Positions 25,608 through 54,377 of a stretch of DNA of 64,000 bases are shown piece by piece. The position numbers and the translations under genes are program-made. The notes below the pieces were generated by a model. That model saw only the letters and a program-made list of their open reading frames with translations, ran no database searches and had not been told where the DNA came from. This DNA comes from an uncultured Fodinibius sp. (lineage in GTDB: Bacteria; Bacteroidota; Rhodothermia; Balneolales; Balneolaceae): positions 1-64,000 of the forward strand of contig CAJXMW010000008.1 of assembly GCA_913056235.1 (NCBI GenBank). The letters are read 5' to 3'. The first letter of the stretch is position 1; every line of letters starts with the position of its first letter.

Positions 25608-25615
25608 TAGGTGGG

Positions 25616-25643
25616 GTAGGGATTTATTGCAATAAATCCCTAC
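25616..25643. repeat. perfect 28-bp palindrome with GTAG/CTAC ends (REP-like)
   Basis: GTAGGGATTTATTG is followed directly by its exact complement CAATAAATCCCTAC. The element begins with GTAG and ends with CTAC, as does the larger one at 57264-57311. It lies between convergent tsaD and rnhA and might also act as a weak bidirectional terminator, though no T run follows. Confidence 0.7.
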
Positions 25644-25652
25644 AAGGTTGAA

Positions 25653-48014: not shown

Positions 48015-51000
48015 CTAATTCAGCTTCCGGGCAAGAACCACCGTTTTTTTAAAGGATTTATTATTACCGGAGGCACTGTCGTAGGCTTCAAATACTACAA
48101 TATAGATACCGATCCTGTTTTGGCTGCCGTCATCCTTGCGGCCATTCCAGATGAGTTGCCCCTGCAGTCCGGCCTGTTTCCCATCAGCCAGCTCGCGCAC
48201 CATGCGACCATAGCGATCATAAATATGAACGTCAATCAGGTAATCCTGTTGATCCACCTTGTAGTTGATAAACAGGTTATCTTCATGGCCATCCCCATCC
48301 GGTGAAAAGGGATTGGGCGTAAAGCTTATGCCTGTTTCTTGCGGCTGCTGGGCATTTTCCTGGTAAATCGAATTTTCTTTGTTGGGCGTGCCACCTCGTG
48401 CATTGACGCTGGATCCCCAGTTGGATTCATCATTGCTGGGACCGCTGGGAGACACTCGTTCTAGGGCTACGCCGCGCGTATCGATGATGTTGGGATTATG
48501 CCAGCTTTTCCCATAGAAAACCGAATCAATAGTAGCGCCGGTGCTGTCGGCAATGTAGATGGCATCGCCCGAGGCGGCCAAGCTCAAACTCGAGTGATCC
48601 ACCCGCATGATCGACTGCATATTGGGCATGCCAAGGTCAAAGAAGCTGGCGGTCTTACTGTCCTCGAAAGATGCGGCATCATCGGCGTGAATCAGTACCT
48701 TTCCCTGTGCCGGAACCCATTTTGCTGTCGTGATCACCGGCTGTAAGTTGCGGGTATCTCCATCCTCGTCTGGGGCATCATGCAGGTACAGCCCTTCCAG
48801 CGATACGGCATAATCCTGGGTGTTGCGAAGCTCGATATATTCGCTCTGGTCAGGCCTATTGTCGTCTTCCTCATCCAACGGGTTGAACATGATTTCGTTG
48901 ATTACGAGGTTGGACTGCTGCATGGGTTGGGCCACCGAGACTTCCGTGCTGCTTGTGGTGTTGCCCTTCACATCCGAAAGGTTCTCAACGGTAATTGTGG
49001 TACCATCAGCAATACTTTTTAGGGATTTTGACGAGCCGTTGGTCAGAAAAATAACGTTGGCTTGGGTTGAATCGAAGGAGGCAATTTGGAGGGGCGTGTC
49101 GCCGGTGAAAAATGTTAGATCCGGAGTCAGCTGGATGAATTCATCAAAGCGTACTTCAATTTGCCCATTCGAAAGCACTTTGGAAAAGATGACATTAGGT
49201 GGGCTCGTATCCTCCTTGAAACTTATATTTTGATTCCCGGCCGAGCTGGCGCTGCTTGTCTGCCAGTTGGAGGCGTCATTAGATGCAGCCAGGGGATCTT
49301 TGCGTTCAAGGGAGCTCCCTGCCGTGCTGCCACCCCAGGTGGTCTCATAATGCAGGGAATCGATGATGCGTCCGTTGTTTGTCTTCAGATAGACATCATC
49401 GCCGCTGTTATTATTGTATGATGGAAAATTATCTACATCCAGCCCATTGCTCACGCTGCTGGCGAAACGGTCGCCACCAGTAAGTACCAGGTAGCTGTTG
49501 GCTTGCAGCTGGATATTTTGAGGTAGCGTAGCCTCCCTGCTTGCATCGCCGATGGCCCAATTGCTTAAATCAAAGTTTTTGGAAGTGGTATTGTAGATTT
49601 CAACGAAATCGGCTTTTCCATTTGAATCGGGATTGTACAGAATTTCGTTAATGACGATATCCCCCGAACGAGCGGCATCGATTTTTAGAAACTCGAACTC
49701 TTCGGTGGCACCGGAAAGCGTGTTGCCGAAGATATCAGAAATGTTGGTAGCTGTGACTTCATACGTATCACCGGAAGTGAGTTCGCTTTCGAGGAACAGG
49801 GTAACACTGTCGCTGCGTGCTGAAATTAGCTGGATGTTTTTGCCGGGACTTATTTTATAGTTCTGAGCATTGGTGGCCGAGGAAGCCGTGATCTTTTCAG
49901 AAAATACGAGCTGTAGCGTCGTAGCATCCAGGGCATAGAGTTCTTCGAAAAAAGGCGGTGTGTCGTCAGAGGGAATTTCATTGATGGAGCCGGGGGTACC
50001 GAAACCATTTGGTGCGTCGCCCCAGTTCTCATCAAAGGTTCCCTTTACCTCAACAGTACGTCGTTCCAGTGCTACGTCATTGCCGCCCCACTCGGAGGTG
50101 TATCGCAGTGAATCCAAAAGAGCACCGCTTGCACTGCGTATTTTGATATCGTCACCGCTGCCATTGAGGGCCGGGAAGTTGCTCATTGTCACCAGCGAAA
50201 TATCCGGATGATCGGAAAGCAATGTATTATCGGGAGCAATGACTACGAAGCTGTCAGGGGGAACAATATACTGCGAATTTGTAATGACGGAGTTGTTACT
50301 GCGATTATCGCTTAAGGTCCAGCCAGCAATGTTGAATGATTCGGAGGTTGCGTTATAGATTTCTACATACTCTGTACTGCCGGAGGGCGGATCAAAACTA
50401 AATTCGTTAATGAACACATCGCCCGAATCCACCGGAGACACTTCGTAGAACGTAAACGAGGTATCCGCCGAAGCCAGCTGATTGCCAAAAATATCCTGAA
50501 TGTTCTGAGCTGAGATGGCATAGGTTGAGGCGTTTTGGAGTTCCGAACTCAACGTAACTGCAACAGTATCAGGAGGAAGCAGTGAAGTACTCTCGATAGA
50601 AGTACCTCCGGATATCGTTAGGTTTTCGCTTCCCAGAGGAGATCCATCAAGACGTTCATTAAAGATGAGATTCAGTTGCTGGCTGTTGCCGATTTTAAAT
50701 CCAGTTAGGTACGGAGGCGATTGGTCAGCTTCAACTTGATTCATTTTTCCAGGCGATCCATTGCCGGATGGGGCATTACCCCAATTTTCTTTATAAATGG
50801 CGGGAGTAGTGGTTGTGCGGCGTTCCAGGGAAACTTCGTTGCCGCCCCAGGTGGAGGTATATTGCAGCGAATCGAGCTGCGTGTCGCTGCCATCGTGAAG
50901 AGCAATCACATCCCCACTGTTGTTGAGGGCCGGGAAATTGTTCATGGCTACCAGTGAAATGTCCGGATAATCAGACAGCAAGGTGTTATCGGGGGCGATG

Positions 51001-53642
51001 ACGACAAAGCTGTCGGGCGGCATGATATACTGTGAATTAGTAATGGAAGAAGGATTACCCCGGTTATCGCTCAGTGTCCAGTTTTGCAGGTCAAAGGATT
51101 GGGAGGTGGGATTATAAATTTCAACATATTCCGTGCTGCCCGAAGCGGGTTCAAAATTGAATTCATTAATAAAAACATCTCCGGATGCGACCGATGAGAT
51201 TTTGTAAAAGGTAAAAGTAGTATCAGTGGAGACCACGGTATTTCCGAAAATATCCGTCACATTCTCAACTGATAAGTTATAATCGGTTGCATTTTGGAGC
51301 TCACTGCCAAGTTGCAGCAATACGCTGTCGGGTGAGGCAAAAATAGCATCATCGATGGCAGGACCATCACTCATGGAGTAGTTAGTGGTATTTTCTGCAC
51401 TTGGTCGGTCCAGCTGTTCTGAGAACGTCAGCAGTATTTTTGTGCTATTGCGGATCGAGAATGAGTTCAGCTCCGGCGATTCAGTGTCAGGGGTAACCTC
51501 ATTTTGGCGACCCGGCGTGCCGAAGCCATTCGGTGCACTTCCCCAGTTACTTTGATAGGCACCGGACACCTCTACAGTTCGTCGCTCCACCGCGATTTCT
51601 TCGTCGCCCCACTCCGAGGTGTAGGCCAGCGAATCGAGCAGGGTGCCGTTGCCATCCCGTAGGATGATTTGATCCCCACCATTGTTGAGGGAAGGAAAAT
51701 CGCCCATGACTACCATGTTGATATCGGGATAGCTGTTCTCAATGATATTATTCGGAGTGATGACGATAAAGCTGTCGGGCGGAACAATTACCTGCGATTG
51801 CGTGATGGGATCGGGGGTGCCGCGATTATCGCTCAGTGTCCAGTTTTTCAGATCCAGTGATTTGTCGGAATGATTGTAGAGTTCAATATACTCTGAGCCG
51901 CTGGAGGGCGGGGCGGACATAAATTCATTGATGGCCACATCGCCAGAATCTACCGGTGCTGGTTTGTAAAAAGTAAAGCTGGTATCGGTGGCGGCGATAG
52001 TATTGCCAAAAATGTCTTCAGCATTGGAAGTCGAAAGGGTATACTCTTGGGCATCCTGCAAATTCGATCCCAGGGTGAGTTCTACGGTATCGGAAGCTAT
52101 TTGGCTGACCGAGCTAACACTTGAGCTTGTGATATTATAGCTGCCCGGTTGATCCAGCCGTTCATTATAGGCGAGCGTTAAGGTTTGTGGAGAATTGATT
52201 GTCAAATTTGTCAGGCGGGGCGGGGTATTATCAGAGGCGACTTCGTTTGCCTGCCCGGGCGTTCCTCCTTGGGAGTTCGGGGAATTTCCCCAGTTTTCAC
52301 TGTAAATACTGGCTGCTGAGAGGGATCGGCGTTCGAGTGCTACATCATTGCCGCCCCATGCTGAGGTATAAAACAGGGAGTCCGCCTGGGAGCCGCCGGC
52401 TGTCACTAATTGGACGGCGTCATCACTGTTATTGAGTGATGGAAGCGCACTTAGCAGTATATAGTTTTGACTTCCGTAGGTATTGAAAAGTGCAGTTGTG
52501 TCCGCTGATACCACGCGAAATCCATTGGGCTCCAATGGAATGGGATCGTTGCCCAAAGCTTCGGTGCCCTCATCATCGCCCACTTCCCACTGGGCCAGGT
52601 TCAGGTATTTGCCGCTGGTATTGATGACTTCCACATACTCAGCCTGTCCGGAGGGGGGATCAGCCATAAATTCGTTGATCTTGACATCACCGCTGGCATA
52701 ACTGTCAAAGACATAAAACAGTTGGTCAGTCGACTGAATGCTGTTGCCAGACTGGTCCCTAATTCCGCTAGTTGAGACTGTATATTTATTTGAGGACAGC
52801 GATTCGTTATAGCTTAATCGTACAGTATCCGAGGCTGGGAAAGAAATTGAAGACGGGGAACCGACGCCGTTGTCGATGGTGAAATCGGATGCGTCAATGG
52901 TTGCCTGATCCGGTGCGCGGTTGAAGGCCATGTCAACCGAGGTTGCACTAGCCAATTGTGCATCAGTTGTGGTAAAGGGGGGCAGGTCGATTTTGAAATC
53001 CAGGTAAAAAAGATCTGACCGACTGGAAGTGAAACTAATTTTAGGGCCAAAATATGATGCCGAGGTATGCGTGTTATCTGTGGCTGATTGACTGGTAGCG
53101 GACGTCAGGCCGTATCCTTCGGCTATCTGCATTTGCCAATTGCCATTATTGTCACGGTCAACCCGAATAGTGTAGCCGCCTCCGGATTGGACTACGGTTG
53201 TTCCTGAAAGCACAATGGCGGCTTCGGATCCGCTGTCATAGCGGACCAGATGAAATACGTCATCACCGCTTTCACCCACTTGAATGGCATAGCCGTTTAC
53301 CGATCCTTCGAGGTTGGAAATGTCACTCATCAGAAATATTTCGGCTTGGTTGGAGCCAGAGGGTTCAAAGCCCCGAAATTCGATATAAAATTGCCAGTAA
53401 CCTTCGATGCTGGAGGCCGAAGTGGAAAGATAAGAGGGACTGCTACCTGCAGCATCCAGTTGTAGTAGGTAATTGGGATCGTCATCTGTAACGGTGAAAT
53501 CAGCCTCATCACCGCTCCAGGCCGGATTGCCGGTGAGATCTCCATCCTCAAAACCATCTTCAAAGTTGATGGATTGGGCCTCTGCAGTGGAGGCAATAAC
53601 AAAAGAAAGGAGCAGAAAAATGAGCCCAGAAAAGTATCGCAT
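48015..53642 (-). CDS. giant secreted multi-domain surface protein with six lamin-tail domains
   Basis: 1875 residues from ATG 53642 (MRYFSGLIFLLLSFVIASTA), with a signal peptide ending near AEAQ; a 23-residue upstream extension is open but lacks signal character. The first 220 residues form a lectin/jelly-roll-like domain. Then six lamin-tail domains (each beginning GDV-INEF or similar and containing EYVEIYN, DLKNWTLSDNRG and LERRT) alternate with Ig-like SbsA-type domains (LNLIFNERLD, ADTSFTFYK). The repeats begin near 52690, 51945, 51180, 50430, 49670 and 48915, about 750-760 nt apart. The last 95 residues (FTPNPFSPDGDGHEDNLFI, then YDRYGRMVREL) are FlgD-like and resemble Bacteroidota sorting domains. 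Expected at the cell surface or secreted; function unknown. Confidence 0.85.
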   Translation of the reverse strand: MRYFSGLIFLLLSFVIASTAEAQSINFEDGFEDGDLTGNPAWSGDEADFTVTDDDPNYLLQLDAAGSSPSYLSTSASSIEGYWQFYIEFRGFEPSGSNQAEIFLMSDISNLEGSVNGYAIQVGESGDDVFHLVRYDSGSEAAIVLSGTTVVQSGGGYTIRVDRDNNGNWQMQIAEGYGLTSATSQSATDNTHTSASYFGPKISFTSSRSDLFYLDFKIDLPPFTTTDAQLASATSVDMAFNRAPDQATIDASDFTIDNGVGSPSSISFPASDTVRLSYNESLSSNKYTVSTSGIRDQSGNSIQSTDQLFYVFDSYASGDVKINEFMADPPSGQAEYVEVINTSGKYLNLAQWEVGDDEGTEALGNDPIPLEPNGFRVVSADTTALFNTYGSQNYILLSALPSLNNSDDAVQLVTAGGSQADSLFYTSAWGGNDVALERRSLSAASIYSENWGNSPNSQGGTPGQANEVASDNTPPRLTNLTINSPQTLTLAYNERLDQPGSYNITSSSVSSVSQIASDTVELTLGSNLQDAQEYTLSTSNAEDIFGNTIAATDTSFTFYKPAPVDSGDVAINEFMSAPPSSGSEYIELYNHSDKSLDLKNWTLSDNRGTPDPITQSQVIVPPDSFIVITPNNIIENSYPDINMVVMGDFPSLNNGGDQIILRDGNGTLLDSLAYTSEWGDEEIAVERRTVEVSGAYQSNWGSAPNGFGTPGRQNEVTPDTESPELNSFSIRNSTKILLTFSEQLDRPSAENTTNYSMSDGPAIDDAIFASPDSVLLQLGSELQNATDYNLSVENVTDIFGNTVVSTDTTFTFYKISSVASGDVFINEFNFEPASGSTEYVEIYNPTSQSFDLQNWTLSDNRGNPSSITNSQYIMPPDSFVVIAPDNTLLSDYPDISLVAMNNFPALNNSGDVIALHDGSDTQLDSLQYTSTWGGNEVSLERRTTTTPAIYKENWGNAPSGNGSPGKMNQVEADQSPPYLTGFKIGNSQQLNLIFNERLDGSPLGSENLTISGGTSIESTSLLPPDTVAVTLSSELQNASTYAISAQNIQDIFGNQLASADTSFTFYEVSPVDSGDVFINEFSFDPPSGSTEYVEIYNATSESFNIAGWTLSDNRSNNSVITNSQYIVPPDSFVVIAPDNTLLSDHPDISLVTMSNFPALNGSGDDIKIRSASGALLDSLRYTSEWGGNDVALERRTVEVKGTFDENWGDAPNGFGTPGSINEIPSDDTPPFFEELYALDATTLQLVFSEKITASSATNAQNYKISPGKNIQLISARSDSVTLFLESELTSGDTYEVTATNISDIFGNTLSGATEEFEFLKIDAARSGDIVINEILYNPDSNGKADFVEIYNTTSKNFDLSNWAIGDASREATLPQNIQLQANSYLVLTGGDRFASSVSNGLDVDNFPSYNNNSGDDVYLKTNNGRIIDSLHYETTWGGSTAGSSLERKDPLAASNDASNWQTSSASSAGNQNISFKEDTSPPNVIFSKVLSNGQIEVRFDEFIQLTPDLTFFTGDTPLQIASFDSTQANVIFLTNGSSKSLKSIADGTTITVENLSDVKGNTTSSTEVSVAQPMQQSNLVINEIMFNPLDEEDDNRPDQSEYIELRNTQDYAVSLEGLYLHDAPDEDGDTRNLQPVITTAKWVPAQGKVLIHADDAASFEDSKTASFFDLGMPNMQSIMRVDHSSLSLAASGDAIYIADSTGATIDSVFYGKSWHNPNIIDTRGVALERVSPSGPSNDESNWGSSVNARGGTPNKENSIYQENAQQPQETGISFTPNPFSPDGDGHEDNLFINYKVDQQDYLIDVHIYDRYGRMVRELADGKQAGLQGQLIWNGRKDDGSQNRIGIYIVVFEAYDSASGNNKSFKKTVVLARKLN

Positions 53643-53722
53643 ATGAGTTATCCCAGAAAAATATTTTGCTGTAAGGATAATAGAGGATGGGGGAAATGGC
53701 AAGAAGAGCAATTGATTCTAAT

Positions 53723-53870
53723 AAAAAATAGGGTGAATCAGCTATCAACTGATTCACCCCGGAAGGACATTTGATATTGCTCTCTATTTCAACGGCTTAT
53801 ACGCTTTTAAGCGTTTCTGTTGGTAAGACCCTTGAAAAGGGAAATCCTTACAAATTTTTTTCATTTTTTT
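53723..53870. ncRNA. candidate structured RNA or leader between the LTD gene and 53913
   Basis: Three successive paired elements fill a 148-bp spacer. First, GGGTGAATCAG (53731-53741) pairs with CTGATTCACCC (53749-53759). Second, CAAC/GTTG (53790-53793, 53819-53822) encloses ACGCTT/AAGCGT (53801-53814). Third, GTAAG/CTTAC (53823-53827, 53847-53851) encloses CCCTT/AAGGG. On the minus strand the first hairpin is followed by TATTTTTT, a terminator form, with a TTGGCT and TATAAA pair about 17 nt apart upstream of the RNA. On the plus strand the third is followed by two T runs. It may be a minus-strand small RNA or an attenuator for the LTD gene. I do not recognise a known RNA family. Confidence 0.4.
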
Positions 53871-53912
53871 ATATAATCTTCTTCAGCCAATAAGACACCT
53901 AAACTTCGGACA

Positions 53913-54323
53913 ATGGGATACGCTAATAAACAGTCTGTGCCTTTTGAAATTGATAACATAAATCACGGTTTTCAGGTTGCCAAGGGAATTTTAAAGCTCA
54001 GGGACAAGGCACTTGAACTGGAGTTTGAAGTCGAAGATGCTATACTCGGTATTATTAGCTCAGATGTGCAAACGATACGTCTTTCGTTTGATGATCTGGA
54101 ATCTATTCAGTTTAAAAAGGGGTGGTTTCGTGCAAAAATAATATTGGAGGCTGTATCCATGCATGTGTTTGAAGATCTTCCCGGTAGTGAACAGGCTTCA
54201 TGTACGTTGAAAGTTAAACGAAAGGACCGGAAAGAGGCTGAACAAATTATTTCAACAGCACGCATGCAGCTGTCAGAGCATAAACTCGATCAAATGGAAG
54301 GTGGGATGGCAGATAACGGGTAA
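53913..54323 (+). CDS. uncharacterised small protein, PH-like fold
   Basis: 136 residues, soluble, no signal. The middle alternates strands: VAKGILKLRDKALELEFEVE, then VQTIRLSFDDLESIQFKKGW and FRAKIILEAVSMHVF, ending in a charged helix (KEAEQIISTARMQL). The strand order with a C-terminal helix resembles bacterial PH domains; family not assigned. The plus-strand T runs of the structured spacer lie about 40 nt before its ATG. Confidence 0.55.
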   Translation: MGYANKQSVPFEIDNINHGFQVAKGILKLRDKALELEFEVEDAILGIISSDVQTIRLSFDDLESIQFKKGWFRAKIILEAVSMHVFEDLPGSEQASCTLKVKRKDRKEAEQIISTARMQLSEHKLDQMEGGMADNG

Positions 54324-54329
54324 TGAAAT

Positions 54330-54360
54330 ATCCTGCCCGGGATTCTTTCCCAAGCAGGAT
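54330..54360. terminator. weak bidirectional hairpin between 53913 gene and asd
   Basis: ATCCTGC pairs with GCAGGAT and the inner GGGA with TCCC, between two convergent genes. The flanking T runs are poor (ATATTTC on the minus side), so termination is inferred from its position. Confidence 0.5.
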
Positions 54361-54377
54361 AACGTCGTGTCAATGAA

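Follow-up and report, generated by a model that had tools for sequence, protein, structure and literature searches.

The spacer between gene 53913 and the LTD gene in the window (the whole stretch of 64 000 nucleotides that was analysed) probably encodes, on its minus strand, a small RNA of about 100 nt which, judging from the sequence, would be fired by a DNA-uptake and recombination regulon. The RNA belongs to a family whose conservation within the Balneolaceae was shown from sequence, so that a spacer so far unannotated gains an RNA family and a regulon open to testing. Gene 53913 (divergent, plus strand) and the LTD gene (minus strand, ATG at 53642) flank the spacer (53643-53912). Read along the minus strand, it carries an A-rich tract, a promoter, a small hairpin, a conserved stretch, a core and a terminator, followed by about 80 nt up to the LTD ATG. 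These features and their neighbours are as follows.

53854-53878, minus strand: A/T-rich tract, A-rich in the oriented genus alignment; its sequence suggests a UP-element-like function
53843-53853, minus strand: -35-like box TTGTAAGGATT, from promoter pattern searches; kept upstream of the RNA homologs
53823-53829, minus strand: -10-like box GTCTTAC, 13 nt past the -35-like box, from pattern searches
53725-53817, minus strand: small RNA, ends predicted from models R1 and R3 and conservation
53801-53814, minus strand: 5' hairpin ACGCT/AGCGT, the inner part of the second dyad of an earlier note on this DNA; from sequence scan and genus folds
53769-53798, minus strand: highly conserved stretch AAGCCGTTGAAATAGAGAGCAATATCAAAT, matching the position of a strong hairpin in other genera
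53761-53768, minus strand: core GUCCUUCC, putative pairing seed, from aligned homologs
53720-53760, minus strand: intrinsic terminator, 13-14 bp stem and T run, from terminator scan and genus covariation
53674-53702, minus strand: possible separate LTD promoter TTGCCA-N17-TATCCT (9/12), weak; from hexamer scan and genus comparison
48015-53642, minus strand: LTD gene, encoding a surface protein of 1875 aa, in which a domain search gave six Lamin Tail Domains and one type IX secretion signal domain (CHU_C)
53913-54323, plus strand: gene 53913, divergent neighbour of 136 aa, no Pfam or NCBIfam family

Structure, covariation and distribution of the predicted RNA

The predicted start of the RNA lies 6-10 nt after the second promoter box and its predicted end lies in the T run. 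The earlier note had described three consecutive dyads in the spacer, two of them nested, as RNA stems. All three are present, but conservation of the nested arrangement at the 5' end is poor, and the first dyad consists of the promoter boxes, the others being the small hairpin and the terminator. The 11-bp stem with a T run before the LTD gene was borne out, its 11-nt arms (53731-53741 and 53749-53759) being perfectly complementary and about 80 nt from the ATG. The terminator scan, which returned 10 terminator-like sites in 7 kb against 6.9 +/- 2.5 expected, lengthened these arms into a stem of 14 pairs (53760-53730, minus strand), after which comes ATTTTTTATT. The second dyad recurs as a 4-6 bp hairpin at the position of 53801-53814 in the folds of 11/11 genus sequences, weak in G009 and G011. 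For its outer arms, CAAC/GTTG, four pairs are possible in 7/11 (six only with G-U) and impossible in the other 4, and these arms take part in the fold of the 5' segment in 2/11. The stem GTAAG/CTTAC around CCCTT/AAGGG (53853-53823) was rejected. Its inner arms are unconserved, with full pairing in 2/12 genus sequences and at 2-4 of the 5 positions in the other 10, and the conserved GTAAG and CTTAC recur as a promoter, in the form of identical boxes with identical spacing before many unrelated genes.

The folding energy of the whole spacer gave z-scores of -4.58 (minus) and -4.55 (plus), with 0/200 shuffles as good, and the part of the spacer without the terminator gave -1.5 (18/200 shuffles) or -1.9 (9/200). 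The terminator is the only part of the spacer whose folding energy exceeds chance. The equally good folding of the plus strand would suit a reading in which the dyads arose by chance or serve gene 53913 on the plus strand, as an RNA or a terminator. The plus-strand T runs before that gene, to which the earlier note had also pointed, are indeed present; however, they are the complement of the A-rich tract of the promoter, and a plus-strand RNA for gene 53913 found no support. As promoter, core and T run are all conserved and minus-oriented, we consider this reading next to negligible.

Covariation among homologous spacers, which had been proposed beforehand as a check, was positive. RNAalifold on 22 non-genus sequences (alignment A5) missed the terminator, with g19 misaligned, and pairs were therefore counted separately on alignments A6 and A3. 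In the genus (A3, 11 of the 12 members, without G001), 5/13 terminator pairs had changed on both sides and 99.3% of cells were paired. In the other genera (A6, 17 of 36 sequences, the genus itself with its 12 members, G021, G024 and five g19 genomes being excluded), 7/20 pairs of hairpin and terminator had changed on both sides and 97.6% of cells were paired; slid controls for these counts gave 45-62% paired. Shuffles equalled A6 in 0/500 cases for four measures and in 65/500 for further pair types, and equalled A3 in 0/500 for four measures and in 7/500 for pairs changed on both sides, with the caveat that related sequences can outdo shuffles without any structure. RNAalifold pairs in the conserved part of the genus alignment fell in nearly invariant columns and were not used.

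The earlier note had called the RNA possibly new, and a search of Rfam release 15 gave no match to it: only a tRNA scored above its gathering score in the whole window, and a permissive search of 53600-54000 gave one chance match on the opposite strand. A covariance model built from 11 genus members without the promoter (R1) matched 41/92 family genomes (E 0.01). Among 41 inspected places (21 + 20, window and G011 included), the 28 with the core had the promoter upstream with 0-5 mismatches of 18 (in L104 it lay inside the match), and in the 13 without the core the promoter pattern had 7-9 mismatches and was effectively absent. A second set of model matches in eight g4 genomes (L100, L101, L107, L109-L111, L113 and L114) was set aside, core and promoter being absent, and probably reflects terminator resemblance; these loci carry a different conserved terminator-ended sequence, GTACCCCAAAAAGCCAACGTATCAGGGG... 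A second model (R3, 17 sequences), run on 128 genomes from the order with an E threshold of 0.001, matched 38, all in Balneolaceae but one (G117, weak), and recovered only 7/12 genus genomes at this threshold.

Homologs were found in 46/92 Balneolaceae genomes, 37 of them recognised in the sequence itself and the other 9 solely from the model score. They cover 12/12 genomes of g1, 8/8 of g17, 10/10 of g4, 3/3 of g6 and 3/3 of g10, one genome each of g7, g11, g13, g14 and g18, and 5/28 of g19, which gave two further weak matches. A contig labelled 'Balneolaceae bacterium' (L189) also holds the RNA, the promoter, gene 53913 (48% match) and LTD. UCCUU is invariant in the 36/36 homologs of alignment A4, which were selected by it; G065 (L172) was left out, having been missed by the pattern though its core is present. 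A literature search found nothing, among the matches listed, on this RNA, its promoter or competence control in Balneolaceae, which leaves absence unproven. What looks new is this family of RNAs, the promoter, and the connection with DNA uptake, the integrase and PorX; a small RNA fired by a regulon is of an already known kind.

The shared promoter element, its regulon and a candidate regulator

A sequence search with the spacer matched the same place in other genus genomes and also hit many further places, incompletely and in its 5' part. The element in common (53853-53823, minus strand) reads TTGTAAGGATT-N13-GTCTTAC and has ECF-sigma-like spacing. In the own genome, the pattern TTGTAAGGATT-N15-CTTAC with up to 2 mismatches was found at 24 sites and its reversed form at 4. 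The version with GTCTTAC was present in 12/12 genus genomes, at 234 sites against 5 for the reverse, and TGTAAGGA-N16-TCTNAC with up to 1 mismatch, searched in one genome each of six other genera, gave 154 sites against 27. Elsewhere in the window, a near-perfect palindrome, TTGTAGGGATTTATTGCAATAAATCCCTACC (25615-25645), came up as a chance match to the promoter pattern (3 mismatches). The element has the sequence traits of an ECF-sigma promoter, namely two boxes at a fixed spacing, near start codons (many about 60-74 nt from the motif start), with GTC in the second box, and the usual arrangement at its other sites is a gene directly downstream. On these traits we take it as the putative ECF-type promoter of a DNA-uptake and recombination regulon. 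The right box varies by lineage, being GTACTTAC in many G006 sites, GTCATAC in G021 and CTCTAAC or CTCTTAC in G014, and that of the RNA promoter drifts together with the other sites of its own genome, a shared drift that links the RNA to this regulon.

The two boxes are also mutual inverted repeats (TGTAAGGAT/ATCCTTACA-type arms), and the GTAAG...CTTAC dyad could then be the operator of a dimeric transcription factor, with the RNA in the regulon of that factor. In other genera, however, the left box TGTAAGG stays constant and the right one drifts (TCTAAC, TCTGAC, TCATAC), an asymmetry that is partly due to selection, as the search patterns fixed the left box. The box spacing is moreover fixed, and the distance of 60-74 nt to many start codons is that of a core promoter, so that an operator appears unlikely. 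The presence of recA and recN in the regulon would fit a LexA/SOS box, but the published Balneolaeota box, as given in the available text of the report, is TTACACATATTTTWTACATA (PMC7739468). Its best match in the spacer has at least 6 mismatches of 20, and this candidate was rejected as very improbable.

In the own genome, 17 of the 24 sites could be named, the window RNA included. The genes downstream encode RecA, RecN, ComF, ComEA followed by PorX, SSB, RadC, YifB/ComM, a TPR protein followed by RuvB, an integron integrase, two GxxExxY-type nuclease-fold proteins, four four-helix-bundle proteins and one RAYT transposase; the ComF, ComEA, RecN, YifB and RAYT assignments have scores under the curated NCBIfam cut-offs, partly from a cut frame or locus. 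PorX, the second gene of the comEA operon behind the promoter, scored 438.5 bits with NF052313 (cut-off 300). The remaining seven sites (L035, L037, L038, L045, L053, L054 and L055) were left without a name; the four of them that were scanned gave no Pfam match. The four-helix-bundle (TIGR02436; L041, L044, L047, L051) and GxxExxY-type (PDDEXK_3; L042, L049) proteins are recurrent behind the promoter. At L050 the own-genome YifB/ComM frame, from 1570, ends after 285 aa with two stop codons, the family model length being 499.

The same genes were found in relatives. From 46 promoter sites listed in G002, G007 and G011, 40 were taken as own stretches, and 24 of these held orthologs of the own regulon (recA, recN, ssb, comM, comEA-porX, radC, comF, TPR-ruvB, IntI, GxxExxY and four-helix-bundle), with 3 more encoding ComEC-type, GIY-YIG and DUF559 proteins (Pfam) and the other 13 without an assignment. 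At 30 loci of six genomes from six other genera, 18 matched the regulon (ssb, radC, comM, recN, IntI, TPR-ruvB, GxxExxY, four-helix-bundle and three weak RAYT), and one was a RecQ helicase.

In 12/12 genus genomes, the TPR-ruvB motif copy (1-3 mismatches of 18) and the stop codon of an ECF-type sigma gene (TIGR02937, 46.9 bits, cut-off 42.9) overlap, and in other genera the motif lies 3-15 nt past the sigma match in at least 5/6 genomes (G059, G014, G021, G024, G075). The sigma gene itself has no copy of the motif within 300 nt of upstream sequence in the 12 genus genomes, the best match there having 6-8 mismatches. Relatives of the sigma gene occur in 87/92 family genomes, mostly with two matches each, and presence alone thus does not single it out. 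From gene adjacency, the ECF sigma beside TPR-ruvB is the most likely candidate for reading the motif.

Small RNA or leader of the LTD gene

The earlier note had suggested a small RNA or an attenuator before the LTD gene, and it was right in kind, as a conserved terminator-ended unit lies on the minus strand just before that gene. As a leader, the conserved RNA would sense a condition, the regulon promoter would drive LTD, and the terminator would let transcription pass conditionally. Indeed, LTD lies downstream on the same strand in 36 of all 37 homologs (22 with long flanks and 15 shorter), and at the other sites of the promoter a gene usually follows directly. Gene 53913 is, however, equally conserved (36/37), the order gene 53913 (divergent), RNA and LTD holding in 22/22 long-flank homologs, with argC beyond in 19. 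With both flanks equally conserved, the linkage to LTD alone is weak evidence.

The distance from the terminator to the LTD ATG is 48-86 nt in 25/29 measured loci; in G087 the LTD start was not found. In G028, G021 and G024 it is only 7-31 nt, which leaves no room for a separate promoter and speaks for the leader, and at least in some genomes LTD may be read through, as these short gaps indicate. Against the leader, a possible separate promoter of LTD, TTGCCA-N17-TAT(C/T)CT, lies at the same place between terminator and LTD in 6/12 genus genomes, though single cases are weak against shuffles, the hexamer scan finding 8 such sites in 7 kb against 9.2 by chance. Neither was a conserved antiterminator seen by eye in the homolog alignments, and the core goes beyond what a terminator needs. 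We therefore regard an attenuator as a minority possibility.

A variant of the leader places the core within a tiny reading frame, AUGUCCUUC..., whose translation would govern the terminator. An AUG directly precedes UCCUU in 30/36 aligned homologs, but G011 and five g19 genomes lack the AUG and yet keep UCCUUC, which makes a leader peptide improbable indeed.

We favour the small RNA over the attenuator, since its core exceeds the needs of a terminator, compensatory changes maintain its hairpin in other genera, and a second RNA, before recN, offers a parallel. This second short terminator-ended RNA-like unit lies behind the same promoter before recN (L032 1532-1610, L117, L144) and comprises GACTnTTCATTAAG..., a GC-rich stem and a T run; it is kept in G011 (L137) beside the same upstream gene, with no recN within 1.2 kb downstream. 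For the window RNA, a promoter of its own and an intrinsic terminator, two marks of a trans-acting small RNA, are both recognisable by sequence. At L038 (about 1531-1600) and L122, promoter sites are followed by a terminator-like hairpin and a T run, a possible third RNA type.

Proposed core function and comparison with known systems

The core GUCCUUCC is complementary to ribosome-binding sites of the GGAAGG type, on which ground translational silencing in trans is proposed. When the regulon is on, RNA polymerase with the ECF sigma, most likely that encoded by the gene overlapping the TPR-ruvB promoter copy, would start the RNA at about 53817, and the transcript would stop at the terminator to give a stable small RNA, with some read-through into LTD possible. 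The core would then pair with GGAAGG-type ribosome-binding sites and silence the mRNAs concerned during DNA uptake or recombination. Predicted folds leave the core unpaired with a mean of 0.36-0.79 per sequence in the genus of the window and 0.37-0.96 in others, that is, only about half unpaired, so that its accessibility is not clear-cut. The target pattern GGAAGGACA-N0-12-ATG gave 54 sites in the 12 genus genomes against 68 for the control, with no enrichment. One recurring target site, in seven genomes, was rejected as it lies inside a coding region, ABC transporter-like by eye (read in five: L194, L195, L200, L201, L209).

MicA and RybB are small RNAs of other bacteria that depend on sigma-E, an ECF sigma. 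The window RNA resembles them as a short, terminator-ended RNA right behind an ECF-type regulon promoter with a single conserved seed-like stretch, and differs from them in lineage, regulon and sequence. In pneumococcus, srf-03, srf-29 and the csRNAs are described, in the text available, as non-coding RNAs that are induced together with the competence regulon. For srf-03 and srf-29, both situated upstream of genes, the same paper discusses whether they are small RNAs or leaders (PMC6560143). The window RNA shares this ambiguity, whereas pneumococcal control, as far as that text goes, is by ComE/ComX/CiaR, in a Firmicute.

For Porphyromonas gingivalis, the accessible part of one report has PorX acting through the ECF sigma SigP, which bound the ruvA promoter (PMC4800418). 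Here PorX is likewise present, in the comEA operon, and LTD carries a type IX secretion signal domain; in contrast, the SigP motif given in that part is dissimilar to the window promoter. The place of PorX in the comEA operon is suggestive of a link to a PorX-ECF sigma route. The Balneolaeota LexA regulon, so far as its available description extends, also covers recA, but its box differs (PMC7739468), and the own genome has a separate LexA-like gene (L056, TIGR00498, 107.7 bits against a cut-off of 110.95).

More tentatively, one dedicated ECF sigma, separate from LexA, might run a Balneolaceae programme of DNA uptake and recombination (ComEA, ComEC, ComF, ComM, RecA, SSB, RadC, RecN, RuvB, integron integrase and PorX) and fire several terminator-ended small RNAs, the window RNA silencing mRNAs in the competent state via its anti-Shine-Dalgarno core. 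If true, this programme would stand apart from the published LexA regulon, would also control the integron integrase, PorX and small RNAs, and would be relevant to the activation of transformation and integrons among environmental bacteria.

On the far side of gene 53913, a strong 14-pair terminator-like stem (54329-54361) lies between its 3' end and that of a convergent argC-like gene.
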